Assembly: GCF_001649575.2 (NCBI RefSeq)
Contig: NC_051451.1
Span: 22,180,785-22,244,784, forward strand
DNA: 64,000 nucleotides
DNA from: Kryptolebias marmoratus
Taxonomy: Eukaryota; Chordata; Actinopteri; Cyprinodontiformes; Rivulidae
Direction: 5' to 3'
How positions within the stretch are numbered: the stretch's first letter is position 1; each line of letters opens with the position of its first letter. The notes beneath the pieces are model-generated. The model saw only the letters and a program-made list of their open reading frames with translations, made no database searches and had not been told where the DNA came from. Position numbers and translations under genes: made by a program. This document shows, in pieces, positions 7,123 through 15,300 of this stretch.

Positions 7123-10100
7123 TCAAGGTGTGTGGAAAGCGCTGTCGATGCATTCAGAACGCATCCGCTTGTCTGGATTGGTGTTGTCACGTAGCTGGTC
7201 TCTTCTGGGGATCTGTGGTAAGACCTCCACATCTTCGTCTGAGGTGGACGGATGAGTGAGGATGATCCGGGGGATCTGTGAGATTATAGGTTATCAAGAA
7301 AAGAAAAATGGATTGAAGAAAAAAAACATTAAGTTTTTAGGTGACAGATTTTCTAACATTATGGTTTTTATTGTAATTTTTTTATTATTCCAAAACTGAA
7401 AGGAAAATGAGTGATTATGTTTTTGCCCGTGTTTGTGTGTGTATGTGTTCGTTTGTACCGTTAACAAAAAGTCTCATGAACCAACGGATGGATCTCAATG
7501 AAACTTTCAGAAAGCAATTATTGGTTGTTAAGGACAGATGGGATGATAAGATGATCTTAGTCTAAAACTCTGGCATGAAAGGAGGCTGGGGATGTGTTCC
7601 TTCAAGGAAAGCTAGGCCTTTAATTTATATATATTTAGAACAAATGATGATGGGGACTTCAGTTGCTTACTGTCATTGTATGTTTCACCCCTTGAGCTGG
7701 AGCCTTTTTTAACCCCTCAGCTTCCGGTTTTGACACCATCCTTCTCCGATCTTTCTCCAAATCAGGCTAAAACAAACAAAAACAAGCTGATGTGAAGACG
7801 TTTGGCTTGATGCTTCTTGTAAAACATTGCCAAAATTTGAACAGTTTGTTCTGTTTGTGCTGTGCTTCAAGTAAAACACCCACAGTGCTGTTCCCATTGC
7901 AGATAACCGCCTCACTTTTCTTGGACAAACACTCTCCGGCGCTCTCCAGCTGGCCCCGTTTGCTTCTCGGGTCTTCGCTGGTCGGCCCGCACAGCTGTCG
8001 GCCCGTCGAGTCTGGAGGGTCCCGAGACCCGTCTGGGTCATGCACCTGTAGATGTAGCGACCTCCCTCTGAGCACTTTCATTCTGATGCAGCTCCCAGCG
8101 TTCCTGAGGGCGCTGACGGCTTCGTGGTGGGTCACGCCCTGCATGCTGAGGCCGTTGACCTGGAAGGACCAGGGTCATGGGGGGTGAAACCAACAGCATG
8201 TCTCAGAGAAACACATGTCGAGCCACACACACACTGTAGGTTTGCTACTAAACATAGAAAACGTCTGGAGATTTATTTTATTCCTTATTTGCTGTTTGTT
8301 AGTCTCAGCTTGGACTCCTTCAGTCACTGAGGGAGTCCAAGCTGAGTGTCCTCTGTTGGTGATATGATGCCCCCCACTGGAGACAAAAGTAATCACTGAA
8401 TTTAACACCTTCGTTTTAATTCACTTATAACTTATATCCAACAAGTTATGTTTTGCCAGTCAGTGAAGCAAAAATGATAATAATCTGATTTAAGAAACAT
8501 CTCCTACCTCCAACAACCTGTCTCCAACATGGATCCCAGCCTTTTCGGATGGCCCCCCTTTTGCTACTCGGGAAATAAAAATCCCCTGAAAAAATACAAA
8601 CAAATTAGTCCTCAACAAAGTTCTCAGAGCTGTTACAGTCGGTGCATTTGTTTTAAGATGTGCGAGTCTGTTGTTTCTTCATTCAGAATGTCAAACACTG
8701 GAGACAGAAGTCAATGTTAGGATTATTACATGAATGGAATTACTCTAGAGATAGTGAGCAGATTATCGTTTTGAAGTTTGTTGCCTTTCTAATAATGTAT
8801 AAAAGTTATGTTAGACCTCATCTTGAATAGTGAGTATAAGTCTGGTCACCTTATTTGGAGACACATAAATAATCATTAGAGAAGGTTCAAAGACCAGCAA
8901 CAAAGTTAATACCTGGATTACAGCACACCTCATATGAGAATGGGTTAAAAAAGGACTAAACATTAAAAAATAGAAGAATTGGGAGCGATTTGATCGACGT
9001 GTACAAATTATTCCATGGTTTAGAGTAACTTAATTATACTTTCTTTGAAAAACGGATCTTGTCTGTTGAGGAAAAGAGATGTAGGTTTATTGTTTAGTAA
9101 CAGAGCTGTTTGCTTATAGAACAATCTTTCTGAATATTATTATTTAATGTTATTTGATATTGATATTTCATACTTAATGTGATGTTTTTATTGTATGTAA
9201 TGTGTGCTTTTATATACTATTTTTTCACTCTAATAAATGAATATAAACAGAATGAATTATGAATGAACAATGCTGCTCCTGAACTCACCTCATCGTGGTC
9301 TTTGTAAGGCAAAGAACCCTTCCCACCAGCAATGCTGATCCCCAGACGACCGCTTTGACCCGACAGTTTGATCTGCAACTAAACAGAAACTGCTCCTTCA
9401 GAACTAAAAGCAGAACAATGCTCTGCTTTGGCCTGGTACGTGCAGTGCTCCGTGACAAAGACGATGGTCGACGCACAGCACGACCCCCAGGATTAGACAG
9501 AGAAACGCAACAGAAATAATTTGAGCTCCAGCCTAAATTTACACTTCCTGATACTGAAGAGATGAATTATTACGCAGACATTTTCAGATATCCTGCAACT
9601 GGAAACACCGTTACCCCCCAGGAGGGTTCCCATGGAGACTAAAGCAGGAGCTCATTAAGAGCTCTAGGATGCAAAAATTCCTTCGACCTCTTGGGTTTCA
9701 CCTCTAGGATGTGAGAAGTGACAAGGTTAGGCTCTGATCCCTGACCTCTGACCTTTCACAACTCTGGTGATAACACAATACTTGGTGCTTTCACCATCTG
9801 CCTGCAAGATAGTTTAATAAAGTCATTAGTAAATGACGTACAATAAACAATCTTGTTATTATCGCCTTCAGCTGAAAAGGTGAAGATGTGCTTGTGTTTG
9901 TCTGCTACCAAAGTATCTCACAAAGCACTGGATGAATTATAATGAAACTTGCAAAACGTAACCATTGGGTTGACATCTACAACTGATTAACTTTTGGAGT
10001 AAACCCGACTCATAATGGGCACCACAGCTAATAGACATTAGTCAATGTGAAAATGGCTATTACTCTGTTTTACGGATACTGAGTCATCAGAAAATAAAGT

Positions 10101-12317: not shown

Positions 12318-15300
12318 TCACACAGACGTCGTCACTCTCTCTGCAGCGTTATTGACCTCGTTTTTATTGGAGTCCAGGGCTTTAGCTGCAATCAGGTCGT
12401 TACGGAGGTTCTCCACTGCCTTCTTCATCGTTTTCAGCTCTCCGGGGTGAGGTGTGGCCCGCCGGAGCAATGTTCCCTGTGTGAAGGACACAAATCGTGT
12501 CACGTGTCATATATTCTGACAAACAAATACCTGATGGCATCGACTTAAACCTGCCAGCTCAGAAAAGATCATTCTGAAGACAAAAAAAGGTTACCACATA
12601 CAGAATTATCAGGAATAAAAATGCCTAAAATCCTCAAATAATAATTCAAATAGTTTTAATGTAGATCAGGAAGTCTGTAGGTTTAAGGCATGATTTATAA
12701 CCAATTTTATTACAAAATGGTTCAACTTAGTTTAACATTAGGTGTCACCTTTTGATTATTACTCAAAAAACTTGACCCTCTGTGAGTTTAAAAAAAAAAG
12801 TTGGACCCCGATACATTAATGACAGTTTGAAGGTCCAGACAAGACTTAAGAGTTTGTGGTCGCTCAGATTTTGGTTTGTGTTAAAATGAGGGTTAAGTAA
12901 TCAGTTGTGATGGCTGAATGTGAATCAGACACATTTGGCATCAATCACTGTGACAGCTCGGAGACTTTCAGGCGGATATGATAAGTGGATAAGCCACACG
13001 GTTTCAATCAGCAAGAAAGGAATGACAGAAAATCGGCAGGGACTTCATCGCTTTGTTTGTGGTAAAGTTCACACGCACAGCTACGAACAAAGAGCAGGAC
13101 TGATAACGTTACATATGATAAGGCTCAAAGTTTTCTTCTATCAACATAATAAAATGCATTTTTTATTTGAGCTGGGATGTGAAATTAGTGCTTCAAAGAC
13201 TTTGGGCTGTAGCCCTCATTTTTCAGTCTAACCAGGTCTAATTCTGGTTCAAAGCAGGTATAAAGTTTACAGTTATGAAAAAACTAATAATGAATTCAAG
13301 TCAGACGCCTACCATGAATTTAAAGAATCTTATTCCTGGCGAATATATAATCCTTCCACTACTGATGTATCCTACTTTGTCCAATTTATTCATGCTGGTC
13401 TCACCTTTTCATCATCATCTTCATCATCCTCGTCCAGGAAGTGAATGGTGCTGGTTCTGTTCGTGGATGTGTTGTTCCACGTGTCATCTGCCATACCATT
13501 CACCAAACTCTCCAGGGCTCCGAAGCGGGCAAGATTGTCAGAGCCTGGAGTTGTTTTTAAAAAGAGGCAAACAGGTTTGGTCTTACTGGAGTTCGGGCAC
13601 AAATTAAATGATCAAAGAGAGAGAGAGAGAGGGAAAAAAAGGCAAGTGCAAGCTGAAGGAAAACATTTCAGCAGGTTTAAATCACATTGCTCAGCTCGGT
13701 AATAGGGAGCTGTCACAAACCCTGCTGTTAATAAAGAGAGAGACTGAAACTGCCAGATCACAGTTTCAAATCCCAGCTTAGTCACAGGCTGACAGCAACA
13801 CAACCTTCCCCACCCCCAACCCCAGCCTCACACGCCTGACTAACACCGGTTTAATTTCTGCATTTCTACCACAAGAGAGAGACAGCACACCACAAACACA
13901 CATTTCTTTATGAAGTACAAACAGAAACCTTTTAAAATGCCAAATGTTTTGCAGAAAATCACAAATAATACGTTTCCAACTCTGGATACCGGCACAGGAA
14001 CATCAGGCGTATGTGACAGTCGCATCGTGATACTCAGCGGGTGAGCTTTTAAATGTCAACCAGCCAGCCGCTGCTAAGCCTCTTTAGCAGTCCAATCCAC
14101 AACATTTCTGAAAAACGCAGCCAAGGAAGGCCTCCAGGGACAAGAGAGGGTCAAATCTATCAAAGGCGGTGTGAGGCTTTACGGGACCTCCTAATCGACA
14201 CATACTGCAGGATCAGAGGCTTCGCCAGGCAGATCATGTGATAATGTCATCAAAGCCGCAGGGCAGCAAACACTCAGACATGACAGAGGAACTGATGAGG
14301 ACTGTTCCTCAAATGTCACAGAGATGGCACCAAGTTATATAACTCAGCCTAGAACTGGATAGCACCCCTGCCTGTACACAGCATGAGTCCAAAGCTACAG
14401 ATTTACTATAAGTTTGGTCAAACAGTATAACACGAAAAAATGCATCAGTGTTCAGCTTCTGCTTCAGATAATACAGATTATTTGTGATTATTTTATAAGG
14501 CTCCACTGGACGGAACTTGTTACCTTTAAGGTCTGATTCACATGGCTGTTGAGGCAGCAGAACACAGGTGAGAACCTTCTCACCCGTTTCCGGATCCTTA
14601 TCCGTCTGGAAGGAGAGGAGCGGCTGTGACTGGTTCTCTGACAACCACAGGGCCTTCAGCTGCAGTGTGGTCAGTGAGTACGGCAAGTAGGAGAGACTAA
14701 ACAAAAAACAGAGCGCTCACATCAACGCATCATTGAGTACAAGTGCCTTCTGGTTTTTAATTCCATCATATATACACATAAAGATGATGCAGACGAGGGG
14801 CAGGACTTTCGAGACAAAGAGATGAACGTGTTAGTGGGTGACTCAAACACAAGCTTCTTTAAAGACAAAACGTTGAGGGAAACAAGCTCAGACAGGCTGA
14901 TAGTCAAAACAACAACCGAGTAACAGATTTACAGGGGCCAGAAATGTTTTATTCTAATCTTTAATCATGTTTTAGGGTTCTGTTTATGCTATCTACAGAC
15001 GTGACGAGTGCAGCGGAACACACCGGTTTCCAGAAACGTCGAACACATGAAGCTCTGTAGCTTGTGACAGCTCCGATGGTATCTTCATCAGTCTGTTTTC
15101 TCGAACGCAGAAGACATTTAGACCACTGCAGCCTCCAATCTAAACGAGAACATAAGCACACAGCAAGATCAGTTCCTCATTTATAATTAAACCATTAAAT
15201 ATGCAGATCAAATATAAATGTGTATATCTATTTTGTTCCAAAAAAAACAAGCATTTCAAACAGAAGGCAGAGGAAATGGGTTGTCAGCATGTGGGGAATG

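Follow-up and report, generated by a model that had tools for sequence, protein, structure and literature searches.

We analyzed a window of 64,000 nucleotides (C22:22180785-22244784) from the 680.65 Mb genome of Kryptolebias marmoratus, in which lrrc1, the gene for the leucine-rich repeat (LRR) protein LANO, lies on the minus strand and is followed, beyond the LANO stop codon, by exons for a Scribble-type PDZ domain. Exons 1-13 of lrrc1 were assembled manually from open frames and splice borders. Exon 1, with the start codon and LRR sequence, lies at 31606..31764, and exons 2 to 12 follow on the same strand at 22988..23105, 22185..22263, 21105..21194, 18695..18751, 18497..18560, 17920..17994, 17459..17603, 16950..17068, 16364..16447, 15024..15139 and 14524..14696. 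Exon 13 (13405..13544) ends in phase 0, as a first-pass annotation of this DNA had proposed, and the reconstructed gene model bears this out. P0115, a UniRef model from Kryptolebias marmoratus, is 100% identical to every window exon through exon 15. The N-terminal LRR array is present, with PF23598, PF13855 and other Pfam models exceeding their cut-offs (repeats not counted to 16), and exons 1-13 share 76-100% identity with Lates. In an LRR tree of 31 rows, the LRRC1 clade comprises 16 rows with a support of 100/100 and places the window gene on the LRRC1 side, not on that of SCRIB. At its full length, exon 14 (12318..12476, minus strand) encodes the LANO C-terminus (..ERVTTSV stop), and exons 1-13 joined to it give a LANO protein of 525 amino acids (aa) that ends in the C-terminal PDZ ligand TTSV and has no PDZ domain of its own. 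An AATAAA located 205 bases beyond the LANO stop (12108..12113) is a candidate poly(A) signal of this short form, with further AATAAA motifs at 12008 and 11160. The LRR exons and the ..TTSV end identify the gene as LRRC1/LANO, whose human form hLano/WT is given as aa 1-524 in an excerpt of PMC10333293. In an excerpt of PMC12731447, LANO is described as the sole LAP member without a PDZ domain. Whereas the mammalian form has no PDZ, the window carries a PDZ cassette past the stop codon, and this cassette is joined to the LRR exons in fish models.

The cassette consists of six in-phase exons on the minus strand, which encode the PDZ domain with a flanking spacer and tail. Exon 15 (10327..10548) encodes a 74 aa spacer. 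PDZ exon 1 (LQIKLSGQSGRLGISIAGGKGSLPYKDHDE, 9289..9378) and PDZ exon 2 (GIFISRV..LLE, 8508..8585) were placed by splice borders, Pfam, PDB matches and comparison with Lates, and the acceptor at 9378 (LQIK..) is consistent with relatives. The third PDZ exon (7884..8159) includes a homologous spacer (..CLSKKSEAVICNGN..) and runs to ..CNGNST, its donor ACT/gtgggt being picked by phase and comparison; an early end of this exon at 8046 was replaced by 7884 after comparison with relatives. Two tail exons follow, the penultimate one (..KHTMT, 7671..7766) and a last one of LRRC1 type (IPRIILTHPSTSDEDVE.. stop, 7123..7275), and the ends of both agree with other fish. An AATAAA lies 208 bases beyond the tail stop (6910..6915) and another one at 6868. 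The first-pass annotation had recognized a lead-in exon at 10327-10548 and PDZ exons at 9289-9378, 8508-8585 and from 8159. All of them exist, with AG/GT borders, phase 0 and no stops, and their positions stand as given; the extent of the cassette had to be enlarged, as the third PDZ exon continues to 7884 and is followed by 7766-7671 and 7275-7123. The intron preceding PDZ exon 3 contains a perfect 12-base inverted repeat (AGCTTGGACTCC / GGAGTCCAAGCT, 8306-8344, minus strand). About 535 bases beyond the tail exon starts a run of N (6045-6588), and a second run of N is found at 48106-48116.

The encoded domain is a complete PDZ close to Scribble PDZ1, as had been proposed from the exon translations. 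PF00595 matched a 166 aa piece with 70.7 bits and the long protein with 67.8 bits, for a Pfam cut-off of 23.2. When PDB was searched, a three-PDZ construct of DLG4 came top on summed domains, followed by Scribble chains carrying the PDZ1 sequence, and these Scribble PDZ1 chains were the best single-PDZ matches (114 bits). PDB entries 8boj, 8buw and 8bv7, named 'Leucine-rich repeat-containing protein 1', contain a PDZ under the same name and reached 70 bits versus 114 for the Scribble chains; we take them to be placozoan Scribble, not the vertebrate gene. Erbin and Densin, which are LAP proteins with LRR and one C-terminal PDZ, have a layout like that of a long LRRC1, but the LRRC1 PDZ differs in matching Scribble PDZ1. 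Since the same exon order and sequence recur across many fish LRRC1 models, the PDZ exons are not there by chance. Identity to Lates was 80% for PDZ exon 1, 92% for PDZ exon 2 and 63% for the third PDZ exon with its spacer, compared with 51% for exon 15 and 53% and 63% for the two tail exons. PDZ exons 1-2 appear about as conserved as the LRR exons, which fits continued use. An AlphaFold prediction of P0003, a 406 aa relative, had a mean pLDDT (predicted local distance difference test) of 34.7 with 15 alignment rows.

The connection between the two halves depends on exon 14, which contains an internal donor in phase 0 (GAG/gtcaat, after NKNE) that would trim the exon to 12357..12476 in a long isoform. 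Among 193 retrieved proteins, 51 LRRC1-type models carry the motif RATPHPGEL; these are models and not species, several species being present twice, and all of them are predictions. The join out of exon 14 was made at the NKNE donor in 41 models, at a second site (TTS) or beyond it in seven, and elsewhere in three. Models with the NKNE junction come from sharks, frogs, sauropsids, marsupials and ray-finned fish, and P0115 itself uses the join from NKNE to exon 15. The predicted long form is about 817 aa long, with the PDZ half in place of the TTSV ligand. The first-pass annotation had instead proposed that exon 14 is skipped, for a product of about 720 aa. Skipping of the whole exon (721 aa as built) was dropped, since relatives trim exon 14 instead. 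As a side observation, read-through of exon 15 (10263-10326, minus strand) meets a stop overlapping an AATAAA at 10267, which is the end of P0115.

The scrib gene of the same genome (C21) has an exon (12759231-12759106) with the same start as exon 14 (GLQRRATPHPSELK..), phase 0 on both sides and a normal donor. This exon is 42 codons long, versus 40 codons of lrrc1 exon 14 up to the NKNE donor. Since the scrib exon ends near the NKNE position, the last 12 residues of LANO look as if they sit beyond an ancestral donor, and this end may have arisen by read-through of that donor.

We then considered how the cassette is distributed among vertebrates. The PDZ half as query returned 436 proteins; among the best 120 of 436, LRRC1 models that combine LRR and PDZ occur in many ray-finned fish, at lengths of about 770-935 aa apart from a few shorter partial ones, alongside PDZ-only models of about 400 aa. 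A tail-only query (47 proteins) and an ostrich spacer-to-tail query (87 proteins) added the sharks P0173, P0177 and P0178, all with LRR and PDZ, as well as gar P0189, bowfin P0187, sauropsids, frogs and marsupials. The PDZ glycine-loop motif was present in 35 of the 51 exon-14 models (27 ray-finned fish, 3 shark and 5 bird, sorted by name), a motif that misses two fish models with a Pfam PDZ (P0015, P0051). Models with the whole PDZ were seen in sharks and ray-finned fish; in the tetrapod LRRC1 models examined, the domain is truncated or missing. The sequence of PDZ exons 1-2 persists in ostrich P0136 and anole P0137, where the third exon is lacking, and the P0136 PDZ reached 22.8 bits versus a cut-off of 23.2. 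In the sauropsid models P0134, P0135 and P0138, PDZ exon 1 is also missing. No PDZ match was obtained in wombat P0142, crocodile P0164 or frog P0183 by a Pfam scan at E up to 1, and all three retain the spacer and tail. The end of the last exon, IPRIILT.PSTSDED, is conserved from sharks to marsupials, in a diverged form in sharks, and closes an LRRC1-type product without MLIP. The simplest reading is that the PDZ was present in the jawed-vertebrate ancestor and was lost stepwise in tetrapods. Since a complete PDZ is found in shark and ray-finned fish models and a truncated one or none in tetrapods, the "no PDZ" state of mammals is most likely a secondary loss. The idea of the first-pass annotation that this fish keeps the ancestral LAP layout with one PDZ is supported by these fish and shark models; for Kryptolebias itself the long form is a prediction. 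The same cassette is also misnamed in public models, as protein scribble homolog (P0003), inaD-like protein (P0005), tyrosine phosphatase 13 (P0065), erbin (P0090), PDZ domain-containing protein 2 (P0099) and splicing factor 4 (P0131).

The next gene on the same strand is mlip. Its firm exons (C22:22160859-22151867) are outside the window and start 27 kb past the lrrc1 tail exon, and a weaker match (E 0.038) is found nearer to this exon, at 22165802 (22 kb beyond it). Six joined mlip exons of Kryptolebias matched PF15274 with 106.8 bits (cut-off 27). In models of basking shark (P0181), manta ray (P0182) and turbot (P0043), the PDZ cassette is joined to the MLIP C-terminus, with PF15274 scores of 160 bits in manta and 120 bits in turbot. 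In addition, LRRC1 is joined to MLIP in an owl model (P0155), and the spacer exons form the beginning of two bird MLIP models (P0160, P0172). In excerpts of PMC7998221 and PMC11240681, MLIP is presented as amniote-only, with a unique sequence and without duplication, and the excerpted part of PMC9174206 holds nothing on MLIP homology. In contrast, we found MLIP members in fish, shark and ray, with homology to SCRIB.

This homology is found at the C-terminus. The scrib C-terminus of the same genome contains, in order, LKLDYKTLAALPTTSLQK, GRETRF, an AN exon and TRPGAIQP..PNPF, and MLIP has the same order with LSYKSLAAIPTN, GRETKY, an AS exon and TKPGVIRP..PNPF. The PNPF of MLIP is read in turbot and in most models from birds; in its place the rivulus copy has SSPY, and the shark and ray copies have NPF. 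In both MLIP and scrib the exon borders that were inspected have phase 0, the scrib GRET exon being left without an assigned acceptor, and the TKPG exon has 123 nucleotides in both rivulus genes with the chosen donors. Smith-Waterman alignment of the SCRIB protein P0023 with five MLIP proteins gave scores of 79-96, and none of 500 shuffles was as high in any pair; P0023 was chosen for carrying the GRET block, which biases this sample. We also built hidden Markov models (HMMs), with E-values calculated for a database size set to 20,000. An MLIP HMM from 9 sequences, run against the 182 other retrieved proteins and 3,822 decoys, placed 13 SCRIB-type proteins ahead of any decoy (best whole-sequence E 9.4e-8, best decoy 2.9). 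Reciprocally, a SCRIB HMM from 9 sequences, run against 11 MLIP-type proteins and 1,111 decoys, ranked 10 of the 11 above the first decoy (best MLIP E 4.1e-6, best decoy 4.6). A comparison by hhalign of MLIP with SCRIB, using shallow alignments, gave a probability of 81% and an E of 1.3e-5. Taken together, the reciprocal HMMs with decoys and the collinear exons demonstrate a statistical homology between the C-termini of MLIP and SCRIB. Since the cassette is joined to MLIP in several models, mlip is the same-strand neighbour and the C-termini of MLIP and SCRIB are homologous, LRRC1 and MLIP look like a split Scribble ohnologue.

As a paralogue, SCRIB resembles this locus in its LRR, in a PDZ1 with identical intron positions and in C-terminal blocks common to the neighbouring MLIP, but it has four PDZs in one gene, whereas here there is one PDZ in a locus annotated as two genes. 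In the same genome, the exon cuts of scrib PDZ1 (DE/GIF and LLE/VNG) are identical to those of the lrrc1 PDZ. The first-pass annotation had suggested a comparison with the SCRIB PDZs; a PDZ tree of 93 columns, built without Erbin and Densin, did not separate the LRRC1 PDZ from SCRIB PDZ1, and the intron cuts match PDZ1. Judged by sequence and intron positions, the cassette PDZ is of the SCRIB PDZ1 type. No PDZ2-4 was seen downstream of lrrc1 toward mlip when three SCRIB sequences served as tblastn queries (E up to 1), a search that short-exon remnants could escape; even the true YKSLAAIP exon reached an E of only 0.23-0.45 in it. In the LRR tree, LRRC1 stands beside vertebrate SCRIB in a joint vertebrate group (100/99), outside of which are echinoderm and cnidarian Scribble and one unnamed protein. 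This tree fits a SCRIB/LRRC1 duplication at the base of vertebrates, and approximately unbiased (AU) tests did not settle the placement of lamprey. The lamprey protein P0098 (Petromyzon), SCRIB-like with three PDZ motifs, groups weakly with LRRC1 (93/84, AU p 0.30 and 0.27), and may be an LRRC1 with more PDZs. SCRIB and LRRC1 are placed in one ohnologue family of the two-round (2R) genome duplications, with LRRC7 and LAP2, in an excerpt of PMC4042849.

Overall, we consider it highly probable that the locus is a fish lrrc1 with an inherited downstream PDZ cassette, a composite terminal exon 14 and mlip as the continuation of the Scribble paralogue. If the internal donor of exon 14 is ignored, the mRNA would end after this exon and encode the 525 aa LANO with its TTSV end. 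If the donor at 12357 is used, the 12-residue end would be removed and exon 15 to the tail joined in frame, which would give the product of about 817 aa with LRR, one domain of Scribble-PDZ1 type and a conserved acidic tail. Stopping after exon 14 and splicing onward would compete, and the choice of donor or poly(A) site may be regulated. The short form would keep a PDZ ligand and the long form would trade this ligand for a PDZ, which, by analogy with Scribble PDZ1, may bind class I C-termini. LRRC1 would be the vertebrate Scribble paralogue that retained PDZ1, and mlip its downstream continuation. Along their shared strand, lrrc1 and mlip follow Scribble in the order of LRR, PDZ1 and C-terminal blocks, and are best read as one Scribble ohnologue that lost PDZ2-4 and now forms two overlapping transcription units. 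It is likely that LRRC1 and MLIP are the halves of one Scribble ohnologue undergoing fission. In this view, the PDZ1 cassette between them would serve either half in fish and sharks, would have eroded in sauropsids and would be gone from mammals, and a donor turned coding would have let the LRR half swap PDZ for ligand by one splice choice.

Several observations weigh against this interpretation. Every long form is a predicted model, and separate PDZ-only models of about 375-455 aa exist in many fish. P0115 runs through the exon 15 donor and ends before the PDZ exons, and for this reason we infer, and do not observe, that a PDZ-containing long form is made in Kryptolebias marmoratus. Scored with a splice-donor weight matrix, the NKNE donor (3.7) and the exon 15 donor gtctgt (4.6) are weak; scores elsewhere in the model span 2.3-11.5, with exon 5 (3.8) and exon 8 (2.3) about as low or lower, and the NKNE donor beats 90% of the 1,551 GT sites on the same strand of lrrc1. 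Of a spacer exon that Lates and Perca models contain, there is here only a weak, interrupted remnant (tentatively 9654..9753, minus strand) with a stop and frame changes, found by tblastn at E 0.069 (E 9.4 in another frame); the exon looks decayed. On the MLIP side, the GRET block was found in only one of the 25 retrieved SCRIB-type proteins, and the Pfam MLIP model matched none of six SCRIB proteins by hmmscan at E up to 10.

These observations can be read in other ways. The cassette could be mainly the 5' part of mlip, its join to LRRC1 being read-through noise, as suggested by the shark, ray and turbot models that join PDZ to MLIP and by the two bird MLIP models that begin with spacer exons. 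However, the cassette has its own last exon, which ends an LRRC1-type product without MLIP from sharks to marsupials, and it may serve both genes, which makes this alternative unlikely. We give still less weight to the PDZ exons being a separate small gene with its own promoter, the LRR-PDZ models then being prediction chains across two genes. The PDZ-only models with their unrelated names, the lack of PDZ in P0115 and the weak joining donors are in its favour, but 41 of 51 models, taken from vertebrates far apart, share the NKNE junction, and all exons remain in phase 0. The amniote LRRC1 models that were read also retain the flanking spacer and tail despite a broken or absent PDZ, which would be odd for an unrelated gene, and a second promoter is compatible with the joined form.

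With regard to the fission of a Scribble ohnologue, the likeness of MLIP and SCRIB could be accidental, or short linear motifs in their disordered tails could have converged. The shared blocks are short, and besides the rarity of the GRET block and the silence of the Pfam model, the TKPG block was present in 11 and PNPF in 10 of the 25 SCRIB-type proteins, many of these being partial or other isoforms. We nevertheless regard chance as improbable, given the reciprocal HMM significance against 3,822 and 1,111 decoys, the absence of an equal score among 500 shuffles in each of the five pairs (with SCRIB chosen for its match), the collinear phase-0 exons and the position of MLIP next to a SCRIB paralogue. 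Finally, a gain of the PDZ by exon shuffling, in place of the original Scribble PDZ1, is hardly credible: the short PDZ tree leaves room for it, but the intron positions are identical to those of scrib PDZ1 in the same genome, the PDZ holds the same place in the order LRR, PDZ, C-terminus, and Scribble PDZ1 chains are its best single-PDZ matches.

With an inherited cassette, LANO would no longer count as the LAP protein that simply lacks a PDZ but as one that lost its PDZ late, and a single splice choice would exchange a PDZ ligand for the domain itself. For MLIP, known as a gene of muscle, lamin and muscle disease, this would supply an origin, with SCRIB as its paralogue. Whether the conserved C-terminal blocks of MLIP and SCRIB share a function becomes testable, including in laboratory fish. 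Among the open-licence PMC papers listed by our searches, neither a PDZ in LRRC1 nor MLIP as a Scribble relative is reported in a title or abstract opening. LRR-PDZ fish models are public under automatic names, so the architecture is not unseen, only apparently undiscussed.

Two further open frames were noticed in the window. Upstream of lrrc1 and on the opposite strand, 42083-44119 (plus strand) is an intact open frame of 679 aa that encodes BTB, BACK and Kelch domains and is presumably KLHL31-like. On the minus strand, 37106-38107 is a 334 aa open frame rich in lysine and serine, which we take to be elongin-A-like.

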